Notes: generated from the sequence alone by a model not told the origin. Shown: positions 14,834-44,988, numbered from the stretch's first letter. The stretch: DNA of 54,741 nt from Solirubrobacterales bacterium (GCA_027315255.1 DAHUYL010000196.1:1-54741), one strand, 5' to 3'. Numbers and translations: made by a program.

Positions 14834-15607
14834 CTATCGATCCTTCGATCGACGGCGACCCCTCGTCGGGCGTCGGTCGGGAACGAAGTAATGGGCCACC
14901 TGACGACGCAGCTCGGTCAGGCGATCCACGAGCTCGTCCTCGACCGCGACCTGGTTGTCCTGTCGCCCGATGATGTGGGACGCAACCGCGAAGTACTCGA
15001 CGAGCTCAGGCGGCCCGAACCCGTCCTTGAGCGCGAACCCCAGTCGACTCGAGGTGCTCTCGACGATTTCCGCCCAGTTGTGCTGCTGGGCGGTTCGTAG
15101 CTGGATCTCGACGAGCCGTTCTCGGCGGAGCACCACGATATGCAGGCTGCGATAGCCGGTGAGCGGCTTGCCTTCGCTGCGGTAGTCGCTCTCGGCGCGA
15201 ACGTCCCATTTGCGTCGGATCCGGTACGCGACTGCGTCGACCTCAGCCGGGCTATGTAGCACGGCACGGCATCCCGCGATGTCCTCCATCTGCGCGAGAC
15301 GCATGGTCGGCATCCGCACGAGCTTTTCGATGATCCGCTCCATCCGTTTCAGCCGCTGACCTACGATCAGTGGCCCTGCGGTCTCCTGGCTGACCCAGTT
15401 CCGCACACCAGGGGTGACCAGCGCGAGCGGGTATGCGTGCGTCCGGCGCCAGAGGTCGATCTCCCGCAGCGCCGCGCCGACCTGAAGGGCTTCCTCGTCT
15501 TCTTCGAAAGGGTCGACGTCGTGCAGCTCCGCCTCGATCCATTCACGCATGAACGATCCCGCGGCGGTTGCCCGAGACTTCGAGATCGCGAGGTTGGGCT
15601 GCGGCAC
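14834..15607 (-). CDS. RelA/SpoT-domain nucleotide pyrophosphokinase (SAS-like)
   Basis: A protein of 257 residues. The synthetase motifs are in order: VGQRLKRMERIIEKLVR (basic ATP-binding helix, about 82-98), MEDIAGCR (107-114), GYRSLHIVV (151-159, the G-loop Tyr) and EIQLRT (167-172). No HD hydrolase, TGS or ACT domain is present, so it is a monofunctional small alarmone synthetase-like enzyme. Some such proteins are toxins (toxSAS) that make (p)ppApp or pyrophosphorylate tRNA. An internal ATG at codon 20 could be the true start. It is followed by a small gene in the same operon. The product nucleotide cannot be told. Confidence 0.75.
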   Translation of the reverse strand: MPQPNLAISKSRATAAGSFMREWIEAELHDVDPFEEDEEALQVGAALREIDLWRRTHAYPLALVTPGVRNWVSQETAGPLIVGQRLKRMERIIEKLVRMPTMRLAQMEDIAGCRAVLHSPAEVDAVAYRIRRKWDVRAESDYRSEGKPLTGYRSLHIVVLRRERLVEIQLRTAQQHNWAEIVESTSSRLGFALKDGFGPPELVEYFAVASHIIGRQDNQVAVEDELVDRLTELRRQVAHYFVPDRRPTRGRRRSKDR

Positions 15608-19445: not shown

Positions 19446-22226
19446 CTATTGCTCGCGGGCGGCGGCGACGACGGTGGGTGGGAGCAGCTGTACGCGTGTG
19501 AGTGCGAGCTCGCGGGAGCCGGTGAGCCGTTCGCGCAACGCGGGTGGGTGGGGTGGGAGCGCGAGCGCGTCGAGGTGCTGGTGGTGGATGTCTGTCTCTT
19601 GCGCGAAGAAGAGGTGGTCGCGGCCGGCGTAGTACCAGTGCTCGGCGGGGGTGCTCATCACGCCGATCCTGCCGGTCATCGCCTCGTCGGCGGCCCGGGC
19701 GAGAGCGAGCATGGTGTGCGGGTCGCGGCAGGCGAACACGACGGTGGGGCGGGTTTGTTGTTCGCGGTAGCGGGGGTGCGCGAGCGCCCAGCCGCAAAGG
19801 AACGCGTCGTAGGCGAGGAACTTGTCGTGGTTGTAGGAGGGGCGGTTGGTGAGGTCGAGCTCGACGAGCAGGTCGAAGGTCAGCTTGATCGTCTCGATCC
19901 GCAGCTCGAGTGAGAGGTCGGGCTTGATCTCAGTGAACGTCTTCTGCTGGACGTCGATGATCGCGTGGCCGTCGGGAACGGGAATCTCGTTGATCTGCAG
20001 CGGGTGGCGGCGCTGCCCGCTGCCGGTTTGGGGGACGGGGTAGCGGCCGGTGGCGTAGCGGGCGGTGCGCCAGCGGTCGGTCGCGAGCTTGCCGACCGCA
20101 CGGTGCAAAGCGATCGCCCAGCCGGCGGCGTGCAGGTCGTGCGCGAGCCTGGCGGCGCGTGACTGGTCGAGCTCGCGCCACTCGCGGCGGGGTGAGATCA
20201 CGGGCGCTGGCTGGCGTTGCTGGCCGGTTTCGAGCCCGCGTTTCGTGATCGCGTACAGCAGGGGTGGTTTGCCGTCCTCGCGGGTGTGTTCGCGCAGCCC
20301 GGTTTGGTAGCGGGCGATCAGCCCGTGGCGGTAGAGCTTCACCAGCCGATCGGACATGGTGCGGGCCGCGCGGTCGGGTTGGACGGCGCGGCGGATCAGG
20401 GTGGCGGGTGCGAGGCCGATCCGGTCGAGCAGCATCAGCACGGCGTGGTCCTCGTCGTAGAGGCGGGGGAGCTCTCGGGCGCCGGGGAGCGTGTCGGGCT
20501 TGCCGATCTCGTTGACCCGGTCCATGAACGCCAGCTCCCGCAGACTCTCGGGCGCCGGCGCATCCTCGTTTCGCTCGCGGTCGCTGGTGGTGGGGCGCCC
20601 GACGATCCTGCGCACCGGGCTTGTGGCGATCGCTGGTTTGCGGTCTGGTCGTTCGATCTCGACCCTGACCTCCCGTCGCTCGCTCGCCGGCGCGCGGTCA
20701 GCGGCCTTTGGTTCGCCGGCAGGACCTGTGCTGTCGGCGGAACGGCGCTGTGCACGCGGCTTACGCGCAGCCACCTCAGGCTCGGCCCCATTTCGCTGGA
20801 CGTCGCCTGCATCGCTCCCGCTGCTTCGAGCTGGACGCTGGTCGAGGGTGGAGGCGAGCTGATCGGGGTAGGGGTCGACGCGTTCGGCGAGCGCGGCGAG
20901 ATGCTGCCGCGCCCACACGTCCGAGTGCGGTGGCCAGGGGTAGGTGGCGCCGATGAAGCTGGGGATCCGGGTGCCGCCGGCGATCCACGAGGCGAGGCAG
21001 TGGAAGTTGGGGAAGTTGAGCGCCTGCTCGGGGGTGACGCGCAATCTCGCGCGGGAGTCGGGGTCGTCGCGGATCATCGTCGAGTAGACGGCCATCGCGA
21101 TCCTGGTTGCTTCCTCGGCGTCGCGGGGGTCGCCCATCCGGAACAGGAGCCGGCTCTGCAGCAGGTTGATGACCCCCTTGCGGATCTTCTCCTCATGCTG
21201 TGAGCCGGACCCGAGCTGCGCGAAGTACTGAAGGCCGAGTGAGACCTCCAGGCCGGCGGCGCGGTGGGTCGCGATCTGGTCGACGAAGTTCTCGGTGCCG
21301 GCGAGGTAGTGCGCCTCATCGACGATCAAGGGAACGCGTGGCCGGTCGGTCTCGGGCAGGCGGACTTGGCGTTGGAGTTGGGTGTGGAGCATGCGCAGAA
21401 TGAAGTGCATGCACGCGCGGCTGTTCTCGGTCCCGATCGCGCCCATGTTCGCGTCGACGATCAGGATGTCGCGCGCCTGGATGATCTCGGAGATGGGCAC
21501 GTCGGTCGGATGGTTGAAGAACCGCCTGAGCGGCGGGACGCCGGTCAGTCCGGAGATCTTGTTGCGCGGCGCGTCCAACCGCTGCGCGACGGAGCTGGTC
21601 GCGATCTGAAGATCGTCGGGCAGCTCTGAGCGGAAGAACTCGGCGGTCTGATCAAGGTCGGCCTGATCGGCGCACGCCTCCGCCGCGGCTTGGCGGAAGT
21701 CGTCCTTCTTGGGGCGAAGCAGCGTGTACACGTCCTCGAGCCGGGGGCGGCGCCCGTGGCGGTTTGAGAGCGCGAGCGCGCCGATCACCGCGTGATACAG
21801 GTAGCGGCGTGAGGACTGAAAGATCTGGTTCTCGTTGATGTCCAGCAGCGCGGCGACGATGTTCTCAGCGACCGCCGCCGCCTCGACCGCCAACGCCCCC
21901 TCACCCCGCCGACGCAACGGACTCATCCCAAACGCCGGACGCCCCAGGTCGAGAAACCAGACGCGCTTGCCGCAATCAGGGGGGGTGAGCGCGAGGCACA
22001 GGCGCGAGAGCTCGCTCTTGGGATCGATCACGATCGGCGCCGCGTGCTGGTCACGGATGTCGTTCAAGTACATCCGCAAGAGCGCGGCGCTCTTGCCGCT
22101 GCCCATGCTCCCGACGAGCAGCGCTCCGTATTTGCGGTCGTCCGGGTGGATCAGTACCTCCGCGTTGTCCGCTCTGAGCGTCGGCAGCACCCGGTAGCCC
22201 AGCGGCGGGTGCGCGAGCGCGCTCAC
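19446..22226 (-). CDS. VirD4/TraG-like ATPase fused to a replication-relaxation domain
   Basis: A protein of 926 residues. Residues about 30-420 are a conjugative coupling-protein/AAA-like ATPase: Walker A GSMGSGKS (39-46), VIDPKSELSRLCL (65-79) and Walker B PLIVDEAH (299-306). Residues about 420-590 are a charged linker. Residues about 590-900 match the replication-relaxation family: a winged helix (MLLDRIGLAPATLIRRAVQP ...), then the nuclease-like part IKPDLSLELRIETI...VELDLTNRPSYNHDKFLAYD. The GTG start overlaps the stop of the membrane-protein gene by four bases (GTGA). It probably couples DNA processing with transport through a type IV-like channel; this role is inferred. Fusion of the two domains is notable. 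Confidence 0.8.
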   Translation of the reverse strand: MSALAHPPLGYRVLPTLRADNAEVLIHPDDRKYGALLVGSMGSGKSAALLRMYLNDIRDQHAAPIVIDPKSELSRLCLALTPPDCGKRVWFLDLGRPAFGMSPLRRRGEGALAVEAAAVAENIVAALLDINENQIFQSSRRYLYHAVIGALALSNRHGRRPRLEDVYTLLRPKKDDFRQAAAEACADQADLDQTAEFFRSELPDDLQIATSSVAQRLDAPRNKISGLTGVPPLRRFFNHPTDVPISEIIQARDILIVDANMGAIGTENSRACMHFILRMLHTQLQRQVRLPETDRPRVPLIVDEAHYLAGTENFVDQIATHRAAGLEVSLGLQYFAQLGSGSQHEEKIRKGVINLLQSRLLFRMGDPRDAEEATRIAMAVYSTMIRDDPDSRARLRVTPEQALNFPNFHCLASWIAGGTRIPSFIGATYPWPPHSDVWARQHLAALAERVDPYPDQLASTLDQRPARSSGSDAGDVQRNGAEPEVAARKPRAQRRSADSTGPAGEPKAADRAPASERREVRVEIERPDRKPAIATSPVRRIVGRPTTSDRERNEDAPAPESLRELAFMDRVNEIGKPDTLPGARELPRLYDEDHAVLMLLDRIGLAPATLIRRAVQPDRAARTMSDRLVKLYRHGLIARYQTGLREHTREDGKPPLLYAITKRGLETGQQRQPAPVISPRREWRELDQSRAARLAHDLHAAGWAIALHRAVGKLATDRWRTARYATGRYPVPQTGSGQRRHPLQINEIPVPDGHAIIDVQQKTFTEIKPDLSLELRIETIKLTFDLLVELDLTNRPSYNHDKFLAYDAFLCGWALAHPRYREQQTRPTVVFACRDPHTMLALARAADEAMTGRIGVMSTPAEHWYYAGRDHLFFAQETDIHHQHLDALALPPHPPALRERLTGSRELALTRVQLLPPTVVAAAREQ

Positions 22227-33982: not shown

Positions 33983-36394
33983 ATGCGAGGGCGGACGGTC
34001 GGGGGCAGAAGGCTGGAGTTGCGCGTCGTGCTAATGGCTGCGGCGGTGGCGGTGAGGGCGTGCATCGGTGTGGCGCGCCAGGGACCGGCGGTGATCAGCC
34101 TCACGAGGGTGGGGCGCGTCCGGCTGGTCGTCGTGATGCTGGCCGGGGGGTTGGTCGCGGCGGTTGTTCCTGCGAGCGCCAGCGCATCGGTTCGCATGAC
34201 CGCGCTCGTGTATGGGCCGGCGTTGGACTCCTCGCCCTCGTGCTCGTCGTCGAGCCCGTATCCCAGCTCGTGTGGCGAGGTGCAGTACCTCGAGGCTCAG
34301 GGCTGGACCGTCACGGTCACGGACCAGGGCGGTAATCCTGCTTGGAACTCGGGCTCATACGACTTTGCGAGATACCAGTTGCTGGTATTCCCGGACCCGA
34401 ACTGCGACGCAGAAGGTTCGGATACCACGCTGAACGAGGCCGTGAGCAACGAGTCCACGTGGGCGCCGACGGTGAACGGGAGCGTGATTATTATCGGGAC
34501 CGACCCGATCTATCACGAAGCGTCCTCGGCGGGCGCGGCCACGCTGATCTACCACGGTCTCGCGTATGCCGGTGGCCAGTCGGGCAAAACCGGGCTCTAC
34601 CTAGACCTAAGCTGCTACTACAACACCCACACGACTAGCCCGCAGGACTCCCAGATCCTTGATGGCCTCACGAGCGCTCTGGGCGACTCTCCGGGGTTCT
34701 CGGTCTATTCGGCCAACAACTGCGCGAGCAGCGTTCATGTGGTTGCCACGGCGCCGGAGCTGGTGGGCGTGACCGACGCCGACCTTTCGAATTGGGCGTG
34801 TTCAGTCCATGAATACTTCGGTCAATGGCCGTCGGACTTCGTGCCCTACACCCTGTACACAAACGTGGTCGGCAGTCAGGGGAGCGATCCCTGCCCGAAC
34901 CTGTACCGCCCCCCCGACGGGACTGCTCCGGGATGTCCTTACATTCTCGCGCGCGGGGGCGGTGTCTCGCCCGGCAGCGTCAGCCTGACCGGGCCGTCGA
35001 CCAGCGGGGCCGTGGGCAGCAACCAGACGCTGACCGCGTCGGTTGAGATCGACGGCTCTCCTACGGCAGTAGTCGTCACCTTCACGTGTCAAAGCGGCCC
35101 GTGTAGCACCAGCTCCGGCACGGGCACGTCCGACCCGTCGAGCGGTACCGCGACGTTCACCTACAACGGCGCTGCTACTGGAACCGATACGTGGGTCGCT
35201 AGCATCGCGACTCTGTGGGGGACCTACACGAGTGTCCCGGCGGCGGTCGTGTGGACGAAGGCGTCGACGTCGTTTAGTGCGGGCGCGTCGCCGACGTCGA
35301 CCAGCTATGGCAATGCGGTGACGCTGTCGGCCTCGGGGTTGCCGTCAGGCGCGACGGGCAGTGTGACGTTTAGCTCGGGTACGAGCACGCTGTGCACGGC
35401 GTCAGTGTCCAGCGGGCCGGCGTCGTGCTCGACTGGCGTATTGGCTCCGGGGACGTACTCGGTGATCGCCAGCTATGGAGGGGATAACAACTATCAGCGG
35501 TCGACCGCAGGGACGAGCTTCACGATCAGCGCGGCGTCTCCGTCGATTGCGACGTCTGCGCAGCCGTCGTCGGCGACGGTGGGCAGCTCGATCGCCGATC
35601 AGGCGACGGTCTCGGGCGGGGATAGCCCGACTGGGATGGTGACGTTCAGCTTGTACAACAATCCAAACGGGACCGGGACGCCGCTGTTTACCGACGCGAA
35701 CGAGCCGCTGTCGAGCGGGGTCGCGACCTCGAAGGGGTACACGGCGACCGCGACCGGCACCGATTATTGGGTCGCGACCTACAACGGCGACTCGAACAAC
35801 AACTCTGTGTCCTCGGGTGCTGCGAGTGAGCCGGTGAGCATCACCGCGGCTTCGAAGCTCGCCGATCTGGGCATCGCGATCAGCGGGCCGTCCAGCGCCG
35901 CGGACCGGAGCAGCTTCACGGAGAAGGTGACGGTCAGTAATGCCGGTCCGGCAAGCGCCGGTGATGTGCTCACCGCCGTCCTCGTGCCCCGTGGGCTGGC
36001 CATCACGAATACCGGCGGCGGCGACCAGGCGTTTGGCACCGTCCGTTGGACGGCGAGCCAGATCGCTGCCGGCGGCAACGTCACCTACACGATTACGCTC
36101 AGGGTGCAGCCGCACGTGAGCGGCCGCGTATTGATCCCTGCCGCGACCGTCTCGTTCGCCAACCCCGATCCCAACTACGCCAACAACGTCGCCGCGACGA
36201 CGGTCGTGCTAGGGCACGACAGGCGGCACGCGAGCCGCGCCAGCGCGCTACGCAACCCGTTCCCCTCCGACCGACGCCTCGCCGCCTACCTGCTCAGACT
36301 CACCCGCCCGGACCACGCCACACCTCCTCAGCATCACGGCAAGCCGGTGGCCACGGCGCGGGCCGGCCGCCAGCGCGACCACAACCGACAGTAG
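33983..36394 (+). CDS. large secreted Ig-like repeat protein
   Basis: A protein of 803 residues. A long N-terminal region ends with a signal-like segment (RLVVVMLAGGLVAAVVPASA then SAS, about 48-70). Residues about 72-260 form an alpha/beta domain reminiscent of class I amidotransferase-like folds (CGEVQYLEAQGWTVTVTDQG, YDFARYQLLVFPDP, NGSVIIIGTDPIYHEASSAG). From about 330 there are at least three Ig-like repeats (SYGNAVTLSASGLPSGATGS, GTYSVIASYGGDNNYQRSTA, GTDYWVATYNGDSNNNSVSS). Residues about 645-745 match DUF11 (LADLGIAISGPSSAADRSSF). The basic tail has no LPXTG motif. It is probably a surface or matrix protein. The true start could be further in than 33983. Confidence 0.75.
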   Translation: MRGRTVGGRRLELRVVLMAAAVAVRACIGVARQGPAVISLTRVGRVRLVVVMLAGGLVAAVVPASASASVRMTALVYGPALDSSPSCSSSSPYPSSCGEVQYLEAQGWTVTVTDQGGNPAWNSGSYDFARYQLLVFPDPNCDAEGSDTTLNEAVSNESTWAPTVNGSVIIIGTDPIYHEASSAGAATLIYHGLAYAGGQSGKTGLYLDLSCYYNTHTTSPQDSQILDGLTSALGDSPGFSVYSANNCASSVHVVATAPELVGVTDADLSNWACSVHEYFGQWPSDFVPYTLYTNVVGSQGSDPCPNLYRPPDGTAPGCPYILARGGGVSPGSVSLTGPSTSGAVGSNQTLTASVEIDGSPTAVVVTFTCQSGPCSTSSGTGTSDPSSGTATFTYNGAATGTDTWVASIATLWGTYTSVPAAVVWTKASTSFSAGASPTSTSYGNAVTLSASGLPSGATGSVTFSSGTSTLCTASVSSGPASCSTGVLAPGTYSVIASYGGDNNYQRSTAGTSFTISAASPSIATSAQPSSATVGSSIADQATVSGGDSPTGMVTFSLYNNPNGTGTPLFTDANEPLSSGVATSKGYTATATGTDYWVATYNGDSNNNSVSSGAASEPVSITAASKLADLGIAISGPSSAADRSSFTEKVTVSNAGPASAGDVLTAVLVPRGLAITNTGGGDQAFGTVRWTASQIAAGGNVTYTITLRVQPHVSGRVLIPAATVSFANPDPNYANNVAATTVVLGHDRRHASRASALRNPFPSDRRLAAYLLRLTRPDHATPPQHHGKPVATARAGRQRDHNRQ

Positions 36395-37113: not shown

Positions 37114-37857
37114 TCAGCTGGCGCGGCGCATCGGGCGCATGGCGGCGTGCTGGCGGTTGGTCGTGAGCTGCTGGAGTGTGGGGAGGAGGCGGTCGAGCGA
37201 GATGACGATCACGGTCCCGTACCAGTGCTGGAGCCCTCGGCTTCGCACGACGCACAGGACGGGCAGCACGCCGAGTGGAAACCGTCGAGAGCGTGCGAGC
37301 CAGCCGGCGGTGTTGAGTGTTCGGACGAGGTGGCGCTCCTCGAAACCGCGCGTCTTGGTCTCGATCGCGAACCCGAGACCGTTGGGCGCTCGTGCGAGGT
37401 GGTCGATGTCGCCGCCGGGCCAGTTGACGGCGTGGCGGATCTCCCAGCCTTGGCGTGCCAGCTGGTTGAGCGCCTGGCGAACGGCGTCTTCGGAGTCTGC
37501 GCCGATCCGGTTGCGGTGTGCCAGGTGCAGCGATTTGCGGGATCCGATTGTGGCGCCGGTACCGGCGAGGAGGAGCAGGCCGCCGGGCGTGATCGCGCCG
37601 GCTGCGAGTGCGGCGAGCCCGATCATGAGGGTGAGCAGCGCCGCGATCGCAAGTGCGATAAAGCCCAGGAGATGCCGGTATTGGAGTGTGCGGGGGTGGC
37701 TCACGCTGATTCTGCGGAGAGCATGGCCGATGGGGTGGACGTCGCTGGCAGCATCGCCCTGGAATCGGGCGTTCGCGGCGTCGTTCTCAGCCTCGTCGCC
37801 GTGATTCGAAGCGATACTCAAGCTCGCACGAGTGTGCGGCGGCGACGCCCCGAGCAC
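37114..37857 (-). CDS. membrane-anchored NERD-domain protein
   Basis: A protein of 247 residues. Two hydrophobic segments (LLGFIALAIAALLTLMIGLA and LAAGAITPGGLLLLAGTGAT) are at about 63-100. A NERD domain follows at about 112-215: NRIGADSEDAVRQALNQLAR, WPGGDIDHLARAPNGLGFAI, then ETKTRG with the Asp and Glu-x-Lys typical of this nuclease-related fold. NERD proteins are presumed nucleases or DNA-binding proteins of mobile elements. It starts 19 bases after the HTH gene on the same strand, so it is probably the sixth gene of the operon. The start codon is uncertain. Confidence 0.7.
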   Translation of the reverse strand: MLGASPPHTRASLSIASNHGDEAENDAANARFQGDAASDVHPIGHALRRISVSHPRTLQYRHLLGFIALAIAALLTLMIGLAALAAGAITPGGLLLLAGTGATIGSRKSLHLAHRNRIGADSEDAVRQALNQLARQGWEIRHAVNWPGGDIDHLARAPNGLGFAIETKTRGFEERHLVRTLNTAGWLARSRRFPLGVLPVLCVVRSRGLQHWYGTVIVISLDRLLPTLQQLTTNRQHAAMRPMRRAS

Positions 37858-37876
37858 CTGAGGTCAACCGGCGCGG

Positions 37877-38173
37877 CTATGCGAGGTGGTCGGCGGGGAG
37901 TTGCACGCCGTCCCAGAACGCTTGCGCGTTGTAGGTCGTGTGCGTGGGCTTGTCGTTGGTGGCTTCGGAGTTGATCAGCGCTTGGAAGTCGTGGCGGCGG
38001 ATGCGGACCCGGCGTCCGACGCGCAGCGCGGGCAGCGATCCGTCGGCGATCCAGTTGCGGACCGTTTGCTCGTTGAGCTTGAGGATCTTTGCGACTTCGG
38101 CGACGGTCAGAAAGTCGTCGATCGCGGCGAGATCACGACTGGACACCCCGAGTTCCGTCGGCGTTTGGCTCAA
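37877..38173 (-). CDS. excisionase-like HTH_17 protein
   Basis: A protein of 98 residues. DFLTVAEVAKILKLNEQTVR followed by NWIADGSLPALRVGRRVRIR is a full MerR/excisionase-type helix-turn-helix and wing. The C-terminal 30 residues are unassigned. Its ATG overlaps the stop of the secreted-protein gene by four bases. A DNA-binding protein in the middle of an operon of secreted proteins is odd. It may regulate the operon or act in excision or recombination. Confidence 0.8.
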   Translation of the reverse strand: MSQTPTELGVSSRDLAAIDDFLTVAEVAKILKLNEQTVRNWIADGSLPALRVGRRVRIRRHDFQALINSEATNDKPTHTTYNAQAFWDGVQLPADHLA

Positions 38174-39876
38174 GCTGCTGGGCGGATCGTCTTCGCCGCG
38201 CCGACCGGGTGGGAGTCGCGGACGGCGACGAGTACGGTCCGTGTCGGGCGCCTTGTCTTGATCTTCGCGACGTCGTGGCTGACCCGCACCGTGATCGTCC
38301 GTGGCTTCGCTCGCCTGTAGTACAGCCGGACCGCGAGCCGGTCCCCGTGGGGGAACCGCGCGAGCTCGACTGTCAGCCAGCCGTCAGACCATGTCGCTGA
38401 ACGCACCCTGACCCGCACACAATGCCGAATGGCGCACCGCGGATGCCTCTTGCCGGGGCACGCCCTGCAGGACGCGCTCGTCGGGACCTTCACCGGCGTT
38501 GTGGCCGGCATCGTCGGCATGGTGGTGGTGGTGGTGGTGGGCGTGGTGGTGGTCGTTGCGGTGGGCGTGGTCGTGGTGGTTGTGGTCGTGGTGGTTGTCT
38601 GGGTGCTGGTGGCGGCGGGGACCGTGACGTTCGTGGTCGCGATGTTGCTCTGCCCGCCCTGCCCGGCGGTGTCGGTCAGCCACAGCCGGACGGTGTAGCT
38701 GCCTGCCGCCGGCGCGGTCACTTGCGCGGCCCCGCTGGTGCTGACTTGGACGGGGCTGGCACAGGTGGCTTGGCAGAGCTCGAGGTAGGCGGCGGCGATC
38801 GGCTGTGGCGAGTTGGCAGGGTTCGACCACGCTAGATCGATCACATCAGAGGTGGCGCTGGCCGCGGTTGCGGTCAGCTGCGACGGGGCTGGGGGACCGT
38901 TGTTGTCGATCGCGATCGTGGGGCCTTGCACGACGGTCGTGTCGCCAGCCGCGTTGGTCAGCACCAGCTGAATGTTCTGAGCGCCGTCCTGCAGCGCGCT
39001 CGTGTTGATCTGCACCTGCCCGGAGGGCAGCTCCTGGCACGCCTGCACCTGTGTGTAGGTGCAGCTCTGCTGCTGGTTGAGTAGCGTGGCGCCGGTGTCG
39101 CTGAGGACTTGAACGTCGGCGATCCCGGACGGGTCGCTCGCGTTGAACGACAGCGGGACGCTTCCCGTCACGACTCCGCTACCCCATAGCGGCCCGCCCT
39201 CGCTTTGCACGATCGGGCCGCCGGTTCGCTGAAGCGTGACCTGCGCCGAATACAGTGCGGCCTCAACGTCATGCGATCCCCCGACGCTAGGAAGGCACGT
39301 TTGTCCGCCTTCGACCTGTGCGCATTGGACTCCGAAGAACACGCTGCTGGCATCAAGCCCGGTCTCGACTTGCGGTGCCTGGTTGTTGTAGTAGGCACAG
39401 GGCGTGGTGTGCAGGAGGTTGCGCTGGCAGTCGCTGCTCTGCGGAGTTCCGTCGACCTGTAGCCCGGAGAGCCAGCCGTCCATGCTGGCCTCATAAGAGC
39501 TGTAGTAGCTGATCGCGGTGATCTGGATTCCGGCTGGGACGTTCAACTCCCATCCGGCGTGCGACCCGGTCGGCACGGGTGTTGTCGAGCCGATCTGGTC
39601 CTCGGCGAACAGCGCGCCGGTTGTCGAGATCGCTTGCGTGGCCGCGTCATCGGGCCCGAAAGCGGGCACGCCACCACATAGGTTGCTCGTCGTCAGCGAT
39701 GTTGTCGCCTGGTCGGTCGAGGTCCACGCGCCTGAGGAGCTGCCTGGGCTGCACGCGGTGATCGTGTAGCTGCCCGGGGTCGGTGTTGCGGACGCGGTCG
39801 GGCTGCCAGGCACCGCGACCGCCGCCGCCACCCCCGCCGTGGCGGCGAGCAGGCCGCTGACGATCCTGCGGGTCAT
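38170..39876 (-). CDS. secreted beta-rich protein with poly-Thr linker
   Basis: A protein of 568 residues. Its signal peptide reads TRRIVSGLLAATAGVAAAVA. Residues about 30-430 are beta-rich with paired Cys residues and Ig/Big-like stretches (SVPLSFNASDPSGIADVQVL, GSYTVRLWLTDTAGQGGQSN). A Thr-rich linker occupies about 440-480. The C-terminal module of about 85 residues (WSDGWLTVELARFPHGDRLA then VRLYYRRAKPRTITV) resembles the end of the neighbouring subtilase. The ATG overlaps the subtilase stop by four bases. The frame remains open far upstream, but only this start has a signal peptide. Function unknown. Confidence 0.75.
   Translation of the reverse strand: MTRRIVSGLLAATAGVAAAVAVPGSPTASATPTPGSYTITACSPGSSSGAWTSTDQATTSLTTSNLCGGVPAFGPDDAATQAISTTGALFAEDQIGSTTPVPTGSHAGWELNVPAGIQITAISYYSSYEASMDGWLSGLQVDGTPQSSDCQRNLLHTTPCAYYNNQAPQVETGLDASSVFFGVQCAQVEGGQTCLPSVGGSHDVEAALYSAQVTLQRTGGPIVQSEGGPLWGSGVVTGSVPLSFNASDPSGIADVQVLSDTGATLLNQQQSCTYTQVQACQELPSGQVQINTSALQDGAQNIQLVLTNAAGDTTVVQGPTIAIDNNGPPAPSQLTATAASATSDVIDLAWSNPANSPQPIAAAYLELCQATCASPVQVSTSGAAQVTAPAAGSYTVRLWLTDTAGQGGQSNIATTNVTVPAATSTQTTTTTTTTTTTPTATTTTTPTTTTTTMPTMPATTPVKVPTSASCRACPGKRHPRCAIRHCVRVRVRSATWSDGWLTVELARFPHGDRLAVRLYYRRAKPRTITVRVSHDVAKIKTRRPTRTVLVAVRDSHPVGAAKTIRPAA
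38521..38600. repeat. GGT-type trinucleotide-rich tract encoding a poly-Thr linker
   Basis: Seven or more GGT units in a row, then mixed GGT/CGT/GTG repeats; on the coding strand these are ACC/ACG/ACA Thr codons. Slippage here would change linker length without changing the frame. Confidence 0.8.
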
Positions 39877-41246
39877 AGGGAGACGGGCGTTGGGGCGCTG
39901 AGTGCCCGGTTGGCGGCGAACACTTCTACCGACGCGCTCACGGGCCGGCGGGTTCGGATCATCAGGGTCCGCGTTCGGCGCTTGATCGGCTGAGCCAGGC
40001 GTCGTGTGCGGTGCTTGAAGTGCAGCGTCAGGTCCACCGTCGCGCGGCCGTGGCGTCCCGTCAGCTGGATCCGGATCCGCCCGTGGCGCCAGACCGCCTG
40101 TACATGCAGCGGGTAGGTCGGGCTCGACGCAGCAGCGGGCGGTGTGGGGGTCGGAGTCACGGTGGTCGTCGTGGGGGGTGCGGCTGGCGGTGGTGGCGTG
40201 GTCGTGGTCGACGGCGTCGTCGTGGTGGTGGTCGTGGCTGTGGTGGGGGGCGGGGCTGGGGGTTGGGGAGTGTTCGCGTTGCCGGCGGCGACGATCGCTC
40301 CGAGTCCGTCGGCCTGGAACGCGGCGGCGACGTCGAGGTTCCCGTTGCTGGCGCTCTGCACAAGCAGGGTTTCCGCCTTGGTGTAGGTGAGCGATGGGTC
40401 GTAGCTCATCAACGCCGCGAGCACTGCGGCGGTGAAGGCTGAGGCTTCGGAGGTCCCGTCCTGGCAGCACATCGCCTGGTCGGTGAACGGGTTCGCGGCA
40501 TCGAGCCCGCACCCTGGTGCCATGATCCCGACCCCGGTGGTCGGACTGAAGTTGCATGGCGAGCCGACCGGCGTGTTACTCAAGGAGCCGGGCTGCGCGG
40601 TCGTCGCGCCGACGGAGAACACGTTGGGCTCAGCGCCCGGCTCTTGGACGGTCCCAGGGCTGTTCCCGGCGGCGGCCACTACGGCGACGTTTTGCGCTTC
40701 CAACTCGTCGACTGCCTTGGCAAACACGGCTGCCTGGTCGGGTGTTGGTGGAATCGGTGACGCTAGAGCCAGGTCCACGACCTTGACCTGATCGGCTGCA
40801 TTGGCGTTGAAGCAGTAGCCCATTGCGTCGGAGTAGTTGTCGAACTCGTAGGTGGGGGTTTGGCCGGGGCTGGGGGCGTTGGTCGCGCGGACGCTCACGA
40901 TCTTCAGCTGTGGCCAAGCGCCGATCATTCCGTTCCCGGTGGCGCCGGCGATCATCGCCATCAGCGTCCCGTGCCCTTGCGGGTCGACATCGCTGGTCGT
41001 GGCGCCATCGATCGCGTATGAGCCGATCAACCCGGCCGTGGTGTCGGGGTTTGAGTTCACGCCGGTATCGACCAGGCACAGCGCACCCGCTCCGCCCGCG
41101 GGCGGTGGGGCGTACGCCAGGAACGCGGCGTCAGCCTGTTGCGCCTGTGCGCTCACCGCCGGACTCGCGCCACTCGCAACCGGCGAGGCCGCCAACAGGC
41201 CCGTGAGTGCGCCTGCGAGCAGCCCTGCGGCGAGTGGTGCTCTCAT
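39873..41246 (-). CDS. secreted subtilisin-like serine protease (S8)
   Basis: A protein of 457 residues. Its signal peptide reads APLAAGLLAGALTGLLAASP. The catalytic residues are in order: Asp60 in LCLVDTGVN, His92 in DPQGHGTLMAMIAG, oxyanion Asn195 in VAAAGNS and Ser266 in DGTSEASAFTAAV. No long pro-domain is visible between the signal and the catalytic Asp, which is unusual. A Pro/Thr linker (about 340-380) leads to a C-terminal module (WRHGRIRIQLTGRHGRATVD then LTLHFKHRTRRLAQP) related to that of the next gene. Both ends overlap neighbours by four bases (ATGA). It may process or degrade surface proteins made by this operon. Confidence 0.88.
   Translation of the reverse strand: MRAPLAAGLLAGALTGLLAASPVASGASPAVSAQAQQADAAFLAYAPPPAGGAGALCLVDTGVNSNPDTTAGLIGSYAIDGATTSDVDPQGHGTLMAMIAGATGNGMIGAWPQLKIVSVRATNAPSPGQTPTYEFDNYSDAMGYCFNANAADQVKVVDLALASPIPPTPDQAAVFAKAVDELEAQNVAVVAAAGNSPGTVQEPGAEPNVFSVGATTAQPGSLSNTPVGSPCNFSPTTGVGIMAPGCGLDAANPFTDQAMCCQDGTSEASAFTAAVLAALMSYDPSLTYTKAETLLVQSASNGNLDVAAAFQADGLGAIVAAGNANTPQPPAPPPTTATTTTTTTPSTTTTPPPPAAPPTTTTVTPTPTPPAAASSPTYPLHVQAVWRHGRIRIQLTGRHGRATVDLTLHFKHRTRRLAQPIKRRTRTLMIRTRRPVSASVEVFAANRALSAPTPVSL
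40161..40250. repeat. Thr/Pro-codon tract in the subtilase gene
   Basis: A GGT/CGT/GGG-rich stretch encoding the Thr/Pro linker between protease and C-terminal module. It parallels the tracts at 38521 and 41912. Confidence 0.65.
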
Positions 41247-43168
41247 GGTTTGACCTTGACGGTCTGGACGGTGCTGGTGGCGGTCTGCCACAGCGCGGTC
41301 GCGGGGGTGCTGGCGCGTAGGTAGAACGTCTGCCCGGCCGCTTTCGGAGAGGCGCTGAGCAGGTAGCGGTAGCGGCCGTGGCGGTTGGTCTGGACGGTCG
41401 TGAGCGTCTGCCAGCCCGAGGACAGGTGATCGGACATCACGACGATCGGCGCTGGAGCGCCGGCCCGTGCGATCGCGACCCGACCGGTGAACAGCAGCCG
41501 CTCCCGCCCGAGCGCGCGAACGCTCAACGTGACGTTCGGGCGGACCTGCTGGGTGAACGCAACCGAGTGGTCTCCGACCAGCAGCTGCACCCGGCGCGAA
41601 TCACCACGCGGGAGATTGATCTGGAAGTGGCCGGCGGCGTCGGTGCTCGCCGATGCGACAGTCCGGTATCCCGCTCCGGCGAGCGAGCCGACCTGTGCTG
41701 TGACGTGCACGCCGGCGGCTGGGACGGCAGCCTGGGTCAGGACGGTTCCCGACAGCCGAAGCGCGGAGCGCAGATAGCCGCGCTGGATGCTCGCGCCGAT
41801 CAGCTCCGCGGTCGCCGGGTCGAGGCGCAGCGCATACGTCAGCGGGGTCGCCGGACCGGTAGCCGGCGAACCGGAGGCCGGGGCGGGCGGCGCGGGGGCT
41901 GACGGGGAGCCGGTCGTGGTGGTCGTGGTGGTCGTGGTGGTCGTTGTGGTTGGAGTTTGTGTCTCGGTCGTGGTCGATGCGACGCTTACCCGGTTGAGGC
42001 TGGTGAATTGCTGATCGAGCACGGTCGCGAGGTTCCCGTCCGCTGACTCGACCGAAACCTGCACATCGTGGTCGCCATCGGGTAGGGTGCTGGTCTGGAT
42101 CGGGATGTCGAGCTGTACACTTGTCGGGCACGGCTGCTGGTAGTCGAAGATCATCCCGCCGCTGCTCGGATCGGCGCCGACCGGGACGCACTCACCTCCG
42201 TTCGCGTTCGGTGTCGCTGAGTAGACAGTGTTACCGTCGACCTTCACCGTGACGACGTACACGCCTGGTCCTGCCAGGTCGCTGGCGGTGAGTGTCAGCG
42301 TTGCGGTTCCGTGCACGGTTCCGGGTGCGAGCAGCGAGCCGCCGAACCCGGAGCCGGTTGGCTGGTTGTTGTCGCTCAGCACGATCTCGGCCCAGCTGAA
42401 CCCCGCCTCCATCGTCATGTAGTAGCCCGACTGCGGGTTGTACGAGCAGGGATCGGTGTTCGCGGTCGAGCACGCAGCGGTGAGGAACAGCTGCGTCCCG
42501 CCCGGATGAGCGATCGTCGCGACCAGCGGTGGTGGAGGCGGGCCGCCAAGGCTCGCGATCGCCAGCGACGATGAAGCGAACAGCGACCTGGGCGTGGGAG
42601 CTGTGTTCGCGTACGGGTCGATGTCGCACGCCGCGCCGCCGCTCTGAAACCCGGCGGGCGCCGTCGAGCAATCCGCAATCAGATCGGCCGTGTCCGCCTG
42701 GTCGCCCGGCGAGGAGATCCACGCGTCAAAATCCGACATCGACGCGCCGTAGGTCCACTGCTCGGCGGCAACCCCTGTCACGCTTCCCCCAACGATCGTC
42801 GAACCGGTCGGCGCCGTGTACGTCCACGTCCCGACCGTCGGTACCGAGGAGTCCTCCACGATCCGCGCCCACACGCCGCCGACGCCAGGCACGCCACTCT
42901 CGAACGCCGGAACCGTCCCGTTCAGCCCCCCAGGGCAACTCGTGCCGCCCTGCGCGCCGACGTTCACGCCCGCGTTCTGCGCGCTGAACACCAGCCCATC
43001 GACCGGCGCCGGCGACAGATCCGGGTTCTGGCACAGCGGGCGGACCCAGGTGCCCGCGACCGCAACCGTCGCGCCGAACGCAACGACTGCCAGCCCGACG
43101 GACAGCAGCAGCACAGCCGCGCGCAGCAGCGACCGCGACGCGCCTTGGAATCTCACGCCGGTCGTCAT
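41243..43168 (-). CDS. secreted beta-rich protein with poly-Thr linker and carboxypeptidase-like repeats
   Basis: A protein of 641 residues from MTTGVRFQGASRSLLRAAVL; the signal segment is AVLLLSVGLAVVAFGATVAV. Residues about 40-390 are beta-rich, with W and Cys patterns similar to the 38170 protein (WTYTAPTGSTIVGGSVTGVA, SYNPQSGYYMTMEAGFSWAE). A Thr tract lies at about 405-425. The C-terminal 190 residues contain CnaB/carboxypeptidase-regulatory-like units (VLTQAAVPAAGVHVTAQVGS, ASTDAAGHFQINLPRGDSRR, VQTNRHGRYRYLLSASPKAA). It overlaps both neighbours by four bases. Probably a surface adhesin or scaffold. Confidence 0.75.
   Translation of the reverse strand: MTTGVRFQGASRSLLRAAVLLLSVGLAVVAFGATVAVAGTWVRPLCQNPDLSPAPVDGLVFSAQNAGVNVGAQGGTSCPGGLNGTVPAFESGVPGVGGVWARIVEDSSVPTVGTWTYTAPTGSTIVGGSVTGVAAEQWTYGASMSDFDAWISSPGDQADTADLIADCSTAPAGFQSGGAACDIDPYANTAPTPRSLFASSSLAIASLGGPPPPPLVATIAHPGGTQLFLTAACSTANTDPCSYNPQSGYYMTMEAGFSWAEIVLSDNNQPTGSGFGGSLLAPGTVHGTATLTLTASDLAGPGVYVVTVKVDGNTVYSATPNANGGECVPVGADPSSGGMIFDYQQPCPTSVQLDIPIQTSTLPDGDHDVQVSVESADGNLATVLDQQFTSLNRVSVASTTTETQTPTTTTTTTTTTTTTGSPSAPAPPAPASGSPATGPATPLTYALRLDPATAELIGASIQRGYLRSALRLSGTVLTQAAVPAAGVHVTAQVGSLAGAGYRTVASASTDAAGHFQINLPRGDSRRVQLLVGDHSVAFTQQVRPNVTLSVRALGRERLLFTGRVAIARAGAPAPIVVMSDHLSSGWQTLTTVQTNRHGRYRYLLSASPKAAGQTFYLRASTPATALWQTATSTVQTVKVKP
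41912..41951. repeat. 9-bp tandem repeats encoding poly-Thr
   Basis: Four copies of GGTCGTGGT or near variants encode the Thr linker of the secreted protein. Unit length keeps the frame. Confidence 0.75.
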
Positions 43169-44214
43169 GGTGGCGTTGACCTCCCGGCCTGACAACCGAG
43201 CTCGTTCAGTCCGATGCACTGCGACCGGTTCGAGTTCTGCGTCGAAGGCGTGCTCGTCGCGTGAGACCCGCTCGACCTCGCGGCGGTCGTGTTCGTGCTC
43301 GTTGGCGTGGTCGTCGGCGCCAACGACTTCGGCGGCGTGCTGTTGTGCGTGCTCGTGCCCGTCGTCGTTGACGGCCGGTTCGCCGTCGAGCTCGACGCGG
43401 CGGTCGTCGTGGTTGAACGCGTGTGCGAGCCCGCGGTCGAGTCGGGTGTCGCGGTCCGGGTGTAGGACGGCGTTGAGGTGGGGGTGTAGGACGGCGCTAC
43501 GGACCCGGCGACCTGGCCTGAGCTCGACCCGGACCCGCCGACCTGGCCTGAGCTCGACCCGGACGCCGCCGAGGTCTCCGGCGCCTGTACCGGCGCGGCC
43601 GAACTTGGCTTGCCATGCGGCCCCTTTCTGGGCCGGGGTGCGTGCCGATGATGATGCGATCGCTGCCGGTGACGCGCGCGGTGCTTCGCTGAGGGCGCCG
43701 AGCGGTGCGTCGAGGCGCGAGCCGGGCTGCGGTCAAACGCGCTCGCGTGCAGCCGGTCCAGGGCGATCAACGCCGCCGCCGGCAGGCTGCCCAGGCCGGT
43801 TCTCGCGGCGCGCGTGGAACGCTTGCCCGGCAGCTGGCGAGCGCCGAGCAGCGATCCCACCACCGCCACGCCGACCACCACGCCCACAATCACGCTCGCG
43901 AGCAGCACGACACGCGCCCGAGAAGGTCTTGCGCGCCGCCGCTCGCCACGGACGACGGGTTCCCGGGTGGCGTCGTCCAGCAGCAGGCTGCTGCGAGCGG
44001 AGTAGACGGGGTCGCGCAGGTCCGCGAGCGTCACGATCTGAGCCGGCTCAAGCTCAGGCTCCTTTTCGGTCGGCGTCAGCGGCGCGATCTCCTCGTCGCG
44101 GTACATCGACAGGATGACGCCGCTACCGTCGTCCGAAGGCCCGTCACTCGACCCCGTGCGCCTACTCACCACGCTCTCGCTTGTGCGTTCTCCCGAGGAC
44201 TTTGTATCATACAT
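43165..44214 (-). CDS. membrane-anchored Ser/Thr-rich protein
   Basis: A protein of 349 residues. The cytoplasmic N-terminal 100 residues are charged. One membrane span follows (RARVVLLASVIVGVVVGVAV, about 98-120). About 225 residues outside start basic (His/Arg-rich) and become Ser/Thr/Pro-rich, mucin-like. The end is CIGLNELGCQAG, with two Cys residues. It contains the repeat GSGSSSGQV. It is the first gene of the operon; its ATG lies 47 bases from a divergent HTH gene. Likely an anchor or sensor across the membrane. No family is recognised. Confidence 0.65.
   Translation of the reverse strand: MYDTKSSGERTSESVVSRRTGSSDGPSDDGSGVILSMYRDEEIAPLTPTEKEPELEPAQIVTLADLRDPVYSARSSLLLDDATREPVVRGERRRARPSRARVVLLASVIVGVVVGVAVVGSLLGARQLPGKRSTRAARTGLGSLPAAALIALDRLHASAFDRSPARASTHRSAPSAKHRARHRQRSHHHRHAPRPRKGPHGKPSSAAPVQAPETSAASGSSSGQVGGSGSSSGQVAGSVAPSYTPTSTPSYTRTATPDSTAGSHTRSTTTTAASSSTANRPSTTTGTSTHNSTPPKSLAPTTTPTSTNTTAARSSGSHATSTPSTQNSNRSQCIGLNELGCQAGRSTPP
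43510..43569. repeat. 30-bp tandem repeat in the Ser/Thr-rich protein gene
   Basis: Two adjacent 30-base units begin GACCTGGCCTGAGCTCGACC. They encode a duplicated GSSSGQV segment. Confidence 0.8.
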
Positions 44215-44261
44215 TGCATGAGCTACGATGCTTATGACCGCTATGTGGAATCGAGCGGGCG

Positions 44262-44522
44262 GTGGGTGTAGGACGCCAAGGCGCGTCGGACTTCCTCAGC
44301 ATCGAGGAGGTCGCGACCCGTCTGAACGTCTCCGGGGAGACGATCCGCCGCTGGGTACGCGAAGGGCGGTTGCAAGGCACCCGCGTCGGGCGCCAATGGC
44401 GGATCTACCCGCACGACCTCGAACGGTTCCTCACCCGCGCCGGCCGCCCCGACGCCAGCAACGCCAGCATCTGGGAGCCCAACAACCGCTCGCTCGTCAG
44501 CGACGATCAACAACAGTCCTGA
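44262..44522 (+). CDS. second excisionase-like HTH protein, divergent from the operon
   Basis: A protein of 86 residues. DFLSIEEVATRLNVSGETIR followed by RWVREGRLQGTRVGRQWRIY is again a HTH_17/excisionase-type fold, related to but distinct from the protein at 37877. The C-terminal end is polar. The 47-base gap to the divergent operon start suggests shared regulation. It is cotranscribed with the next gene (one base between stop and ATG). Confidence 0.78.
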   Translation: MGVGRQGASDFLSIEEVATRLNVSGETIRRWVREGRLQGTRVGRQWRIYPHDLERFLTRAGRPDASNASIWEPNNRSLVSDDQQQS

Positions 44523-44523
44523 G

Positions 44524-44988
44524 ATGCCCGACAAGATCGACCTAGCGGCCGCCAAGGCCAGGACCATCTCCGCGTTCACCTCAGCCGACGCGATCTGGGG
44601 ACAAGCGATGCGCGCCCACCAACTCGCCCCACCCGACCTCGGCTTCGCCGACCGACTCCGCCTCCTCGCCGACGCCGCCGCCCGCAAAGCCCACGCCGCC
44701 CGGATCGGCAACCTCGCCGGCCTCAAATGGGTACCCGTCCCCGGCGCGCTCGACGCCCAAGTCCCCTACGAACTCCGCCCCGGCACCGGCCGCCGCGGAC
44801 CCCGCGAACTCTGGCAACACTTCGACAGCGCCGTCACCGCCTACAACGCCGCCAACGCCGACACCGACCTCGCCCGCCTCGCCGACGCCGCCGACGAACT
44901 CAGCGAAGCCGCCTCAGCCCTCGCCACCGCCGTCGAACAACAAGACCGCGAAGCGATCACCGCGCTCGCCCGAACCGGCGCCCGCTAA
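44524..44988 (+). CDS. small helical hypothetical protein
   Basis: A protein of 154 residues, mostly helical and Ala-rich: AAKARTISAFTSADAIWGQA, RLRLLADAAARKAHAARIGN, DSAVTAYNAANADTDLARLA. A short loop with WVPVPGALDAQVPYELRPG lies in the middle. There is no signal peptide. Codons are markedly C-ending with CAA/GAA. It is coupled to the HTH gene. Function unknown. Confidence 0.6.
   Translation: MPDKIDLAAAKARTISAFTSADAIWGQAMRAHQLAPPDLGFADRLRLLADAAARKAHAARIGNLAGLKWVPVPGALDAQVPYELRPGTGRRGPRELWQHFDSAVTAYNAANADTDLARLADAADELSEAASALATAVEQQDREAITALARTGAR

Follow-up and report, generated by a model that had tools for sequence, protein, structure and literature searches.

A stretch of 54,741 nucleotides from a Solirubrobacterales bacterium, an actinobacterium of soil (GCA_027315255.1, DAHUYL010000196.1:1-54741), called the window throughout, carries at positions 37,114 to 44,988 a tight run of genes in which secreted proteins and a subtilisin-type (S8) protease stand next to small helix-turn-helix (HTH) proteins, and it raises the question of whether so mixed a set belongs together and what it does. 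Six genes lie on the minus strand, in the order of transcription g1 (43165..44214), g2 (41243..43168), g3 (39873..41246), g4 (38170..39876), g5 (37877..38173) and g6 (37114..37857). Two more diverge from them on the plus strand, d1 (44262..44522) and d2 (44524..44988). Comparison with other genomes of the order answers the first part: the run is not one conserved six-gene unit. It splits into a cassette, g2-S8-g4, in which g3 is the S8 gene; a head, in which an HTH gene and d2 diverge from g1; and g6.

The cassette emerges from searching 232 genomes of the order with a g4 profile, which found the broad g4 family in 173 of them. In all 18 of the best matches (E<1e-70; nine genera of one family, including the window itself and one near-identical pair), an S8 gene lies immediately upstream of g4; among the next 12, weaker matches an S8 gene is adjacent in a single case, and there downstream. 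Most cassettes also place g2 upstream of the S8 gene, at times in tandem, and the full catalytic triad plus oxyanion Asn is kept in 18 of 19 cassette proteases. Because the S8 gene is directly upstream in all 18 best g4 loci and the triads are kept, g2-S8-g4 is a real conserved unit. A preliminary description of the window had grouped the surface proteins with the protease, as this conservation bears out, and had proposed a search for co-occurrence of all six families; by comparison, co-occurrence holds for g1 to g4 and fails for g6. It had also named no known system of this composition, and indeed no curated family names the set and a literature search for such a gene combination found no description. 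Two variants were seen among the cassettes: locus L175 (9625-17935, minus strand) has four tandem g2 copies between a sigma-type head and the S8 gene, and an S8 homologue in L183 (10732-12081, minus strand) has Thr for the catalytic Ser.

The host genome itself holds the arrangement twice. The single other g2 homologue in the 4.3 Mb assembly, at 64% identity, is on contig C75, where d2 and an HTH gene diverge from a g1-like gene that is followed by g2, S8 and g4, with 4-base overlaps at g1/g2 and S8/g4 and a 2-base gap between g2 and S8. The g4 gene is cut there by the contig end, and contig C145 opens with the C-terminal part of a g4 followed by TatA; the two contigs probably join. Between the two copies, g2 and the S8 protease are about 63-64% identical, and g1 is strongly diverged. 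Because the host genome repeats the gene order together with the divergent HTH and d2 genes, the arrangement in the window stands above chance.

The junctions, read directly, tell less. ATGA forms a 4-base overlap at g1/g2, g2/g3 and g3/g4. At g4/g5 the overlap is TTGA, with TTG as the start of g5, for which the codon-usage gene caller chose an alternative GTG at 38146; 19 bases then separate g5 from g6, which starts with GTG (37857). Three of the four ATGA-type overlaps described earlier are thus found as such, along with the 19-base gap, and the fourth is TTGA. The start of d1 (GTG, 44262) lies 47 bases from that of g1 on the opposite strand (divergent promoter region 44215..44261), as had been reported, and d2, which the preliminary description does not mention, begins one base after d1. 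Four-base gene overlaps are frequent in such genomes, and taken alone would be weak evidence for a gene unit. Open reading frames were called with this home-made caller; starts or genes that it missed, such as g1 in L003 and the HTH gene in L147, were taken from lists of open reading frames.

Family and transmembrane predictions agree with the products listed before: a one-span Ser/Thr-rich protein, two secreted proteins with poly-Thr linkers, an S8 protease, an HTH protein and a NERD protein. Nothing scored above Pfam or curated cut-offs for g1, g2, g4 or d2. The g1 protein has a single transmembrane helix (about residues 102-120), a cytosolic N-terminus and an outer stalk rich in Ser and Thr that ends in the tip CIGLNELGCQ; similar tips (CEGLSQLGCQ, CVPGELGC) occupy the equivalent position in C75, L033 and L038. 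The secreted multi-domain beta protein g2 has a poly-Thr linker and two C-terminal carboxypeptidase-regulatory-like sandwiches, and its structure model is of low confidence (pLDDT 52.8). Foldseek matches of g2 to immunoglobulin (Ig)-chain adhesins and receptors had low template-modelling (TM) scores and were dropped as evidence of homology. The secreted g4 protein consists of an N-terminal beta domain, an Ig-like domain with a profile match to the SiiE adhesin (PDB 2yn3), a fibronectin type III (FnIII)-like domain, a poly-Thr linker and a basic C-terminal domain. Beside the operon, on the plus strand, lies a gene for an 803-aa secreted protein with Big_3_5 and DUF11 domains (33983-36394).

The secreted protease g3 matches Peptidase S8 (PF00082, 1.2e-24, 87.5 bits vs a cut-off of 21.8), with triad D60/H92/S266 and oxyanion N195 all present, and has a short N-terminal region, a Pro/Thr linker and a basic C-terminal domain. 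A C-terminal domain common to g3 and g4 was suspected from profile cross-hits and discarded, as by BLASTP the two tails share only IRTRRP. The best curated match of g3 is mycosin (TIGR03921), likewise a secreted S8 protease with a short N-terminal region and a Pro-rich C-terminal linker, but the score of 84 bits falls well below the cut-off of 278.75; no type VII secretion system genes were recognised among the named cassette neighbours, a set to which no search aimed at that system was applied. Dentilisin PrtP of Treponema denticola, an S8 protease co-encoded with surface partners in the prcB-prcA-prtP locus, gives g3 a weak match (19 vs 300 bits) and has different partner proteins.

The head recurs beside secreted proteins that vary. 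Both g5 and d1 are small HTH_17 or 'excise' domain proteins, scoring 54.8 and 59.2 bits, respectively, against the excisionase domain TIGR01764 (cut-off 28.8). The tail of g5 carries NAQAFWDG, and its nearest relative is the HTH protein of a syntenic core locus found in many members of the genus. That locus has helicase, HAD, d2 and HTH genes on one side and TatA on the other, and its HTH gene diverges from the gene for a one-span protein, which secreted proteins follow. The profile of g2 or g4 recovers these secreted proteins at E<1e-15 in seven loci. From one core locus to another the secreted partners vary and the head stays; g2-S8-g4 makes up the secreted part of this syntenic locus in the host genome. 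Of the 28 genomes of the genus, 25 encode the all-helical d2 protein, of unknown family, as do 7 genomes that belong to three other genera. An HTH gene adjoins d2 in 39 of 49 distinct loci, the remainder including several contig ends or genes missed by the caller. The model of d2 is helical and confident (pLDDT 91.7), and a central stretch is highly conserved (APPDxGFxxRL ... PPYELRPGTGRRGPxxLWxRFD).

Core-type HTH tails carry SAEDFWGGEPVG; a similar motif, xAxDFWGG/FWGE, lies on the cytosolic side of the one-span protein encoded divergently, both tails being SAxDFWGG-like. FW stands at the motif site in 18 of 44 HTH proteins and 13 of 22 membrane proteins. Sequences flanking the motif in the membrane proteins agree with the profile of the HTH tails better than background FW sites do (Mann-Whitney p 5e-7, with no correction for relatedness). 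Upstream of core-type HTH genes, in 14 of 16 cases, lies AATTGA-N4-AAYTGA with a 10-base period, as located with a search motif derived from the same regions. BldC binds direct repeats head-to-tail, at operators of the form AATTXXXX(C) (PMC5859096). The proteins discussed here resemble it as small MerR-like HTH proteins with AATT-type direct repeats at core-locus promoters, and differ by the C-terminal tail with the FW motif; g5 scores 28.6 bits against NCBIfam NF033787, for which the cut-off is 77. The core-locus versions are preceded, at the divergent promoter of their own genes, by a direct-repeat operator, and regulators of the BldC/MerR type are accordingly a better reading of the HTH proteins than the nucleic-acid-handling part envisaged earlier.

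In other genera, a different regulator often stands in the position of g1. The gene directly upstream of g2, often joined to it by a 4-base overlap, then codes for a protein with sigma-70 regions 2 and 4, one transmembrane helix, and a Ser/Thr/Pro-rich outer stalk that ends in EF-x-P or a variant; several of these proteins also have a zf-HC2 domain. Such heads are found in the S8 cassettes L048, L175, L176, L178, L179, L181 and L185, with a split gene in L182, and also upstream of many g2/g4-like genes that lack S8. A search of 61 relatives showed that such sigma proteins with a transmembrane helix are widespread in the order; EFGP forms the C-terminus of many, and many are encoded next to a g2/g4-like gene. 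When eight genomes were searched for the DNA pattern of EFGP followed by a stop, seven of the nine matches were C-termini of sigma proteins and one was a short open reading frame. The g1 position is swapped, then, between a one-span protein in this and a sister genus and a one-span sigma factor like those of the extracytoplasmic function (ECF) type in other genera; a Pfam scan detected neither sigma region 2 nor region 4 in the window operon. The extracellular EFGP/EF-x-P tip, often accompanied by internal copies of the motif, is an observation in its own right on the one-span Solirubrobacterales sigma factors of other genera (L201, L203-L205, L213, L216, L217, L220, L226, L231-L233 and L235-L238), and no description of it was found.

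The closest known proteins are actinobacterial sigma factors of groups ECF48, ECF52 and ECF53, which are fused to a zinc finger and a transmembrane segment, as in SCO4117 (PMC5826349), and for which activation by proteolysis is expected (PMC8999054). The heads from other genera are like them in their ECF sigma regions, zf-HC2 (in some), single transmembrane helix and Pro/Ser/Thr-rich outer part, and g1 too has the one helix (residues 102-120) and Ser/Thr/Pro-rich outer part of such fusions. The window operon differs in having no sigma factor and, in its place, separate HTH, d2 and g1 proteins. Neither the downstream g2-S8-g4 cassette nor the EF-x-P tip is described in the passages of PMC5826349 and PMC8999054 that were consulted.

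We favour, at about even chances, the reading that the module is a surface-protein assembly whose expression is coupled to a membrane-anchored regulator, through which surface conditions would influence how the operon is transcribed. The conserved cassette, its second copy, the recurrent head and the head swap are what is observed and speak for this reading; the signalling part of it is inference. The protease-linked surface assembly proposed in the preliminary description is retained in it as the best reading. The g2 and g4 proteins would be exported, attach to the envelope and undergo processing by the S8 protease exported with them. The outer tip of g1, or EF-x-P in the sigma version, might contact the secreted proteins or serve as a substrate of the protease. 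The cytosolic tail of g1 would hold or release the HTH regulator, perhaps via d2 as a presumptive connector of the two, and surface state would thereby act on the operon, with possible gating by proteolysis.

Several observations weigh against this assembly-and-feedback reading. The FW motif is absent from g1 and d1 of the window, where g5 alone has it, and the AATTGA direct repeat is not found in the 47-base promoter between them; because of these two absences, the logic of the core locus may not apply unchanged to the window copy. The comparison of FW motifs takes no account of relatedness. A structural search of the PDB with d2 gave no match (best E 0.22, TM <0.4), so that no function is claimed from its fold, and the g2 model is poor. 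Alongside many S8 cassettes no membrane regulator can be recognised, and contact at the tip and cleavage of stalk or partners by the S8 protease are predicted steps only. A wider generalisation is offered more tentatively: that Solirubrobacterales possess a so far undescribed surface-to-gene architecture of a one-span regulator with a conserved outer tip (EFGP-type in the sigma version) plus secreted Ig-like proteins, joined in one branch by a dedicated S8 protease, and that in this genus the sigma factor was replaced by a split set of a BldC-like HTH protein, d2 as a new helical adaptor and a one-span protein, with an FW docking motif shared by the HTH and membrane proteins.

The main rival, possible but rather doubtful in our view, is a plain adhesin or matrix operon, in which S8 matures g2 and g4, g1 is a mere wall or membrane anchor, and the HTH protein is a local autoregulator without any surface signalling. 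The Ig/FnIII and SiiE-like matches, the secretion signals and linkers, the BldC-like direct repeats at core promoters and the change of secreted partners under a persistent head would all be expected of it. It leaves unexplained, however, why a membrane-spanning sigma factor occupies the g1 position in other genera and why the cytosolic tail of g1 and the tail of the HTH protein have a motif in common.

It is improbable that the module belongs to integrated conjugative elements, as their cargo or surface apparatus, with surface proteins that would stabilise mating contact and HTH proteins that would derive from excisionases. Genes like those of a type IV secretion system (T4SS; TraG/VirB4) do lie directly downstream of g2-type or g2-S8-g4 cassettes in L047 (14353-17046), L048 (18166-18558) and L178 (14424-17470), as clusters that include a PrgI-like small membrane protein (L048, L178), a TraG P-loop ATPase (L047, L178) and NlpC/P60 (L047). 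In the sister genus, and only there, putative integrase genes also lie close to pairs of d2 and HTH genes (L125, L131), the integrases being judged by sequence start and not by family search. Within the window, a 926-aa gene at 19446-22226 (minus strand) joins a TrwB/TraG-type coupling domain to a Replic_Relax domain and thus suggests that the left half contains an integrated conjugative element, but this element is 15 kb away, and no integrase was seen in the window among the genes checked. The genus head, moreover, occupies a single syntenic chromosomal locus, next to helicase, HAD and TatA genes, which the mobile-element reading does not fit; many cassettes have no T4SS neighbours, and d2 matches neither plasmid nor phage. 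A phage or plasmid origin of d2 was discarded, as there was no match in a phage or plasmid collection and none in PHROGs. The putative mobile region also encodes, at 14834-15607 (minus strand), a 257-aa RelA_SpoT-domain protein, perhaps a small alarmone synthetase, perhaps a toxin-like relative.

The g6 protein has transmembrane segments and a NERD match (PF08378, 2.9e-7, 31.4 vs a cut-off of 22.1 bits) that covers profile positions 2-58 of 111 only. Its relatives in 6 other genomes of the genus were never beside HTH, d2, g2, S8 or g4 within the fetched flanks; g6 is incidental and outside the conserved module. The single six-gene apparatus first proposed, with surface proteins tied to nucleic acid through HTH and NERD parts for DNA uptake, phage exclusion or contact-dependent interaction, is therefore very improbable: NERD and HTH genes do lie within one run, but NERD is not conserved with the module, and PADLOC and PHROGs returned no defence or uptake families. 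MAD1 of the anti-phage system MADS reached 36.5 bits (cut-off 80) with no MADS partner genes found by PADLOC, a defence system was rejected as the MAD1 and IetS matches were only HTH-level or weak S8-level, and PHROGs had no match for g1, g2, g4, g6 or d2.

The variants of this module suggest a hitherto undescribed link between the cell surface and gene control. Signals sensed by actinobacterial membrane-fused sigma factors are poorly understood, and here the genes for a secreted protease and secreted Ig-like partners follow immediately after such a regulator or its split counterpart, which makes ligand, protease and regulator testable within a single operon. Exchange of the regulator at a constant position would also give a clear example of a surface module switched from one type of transcription control to another.

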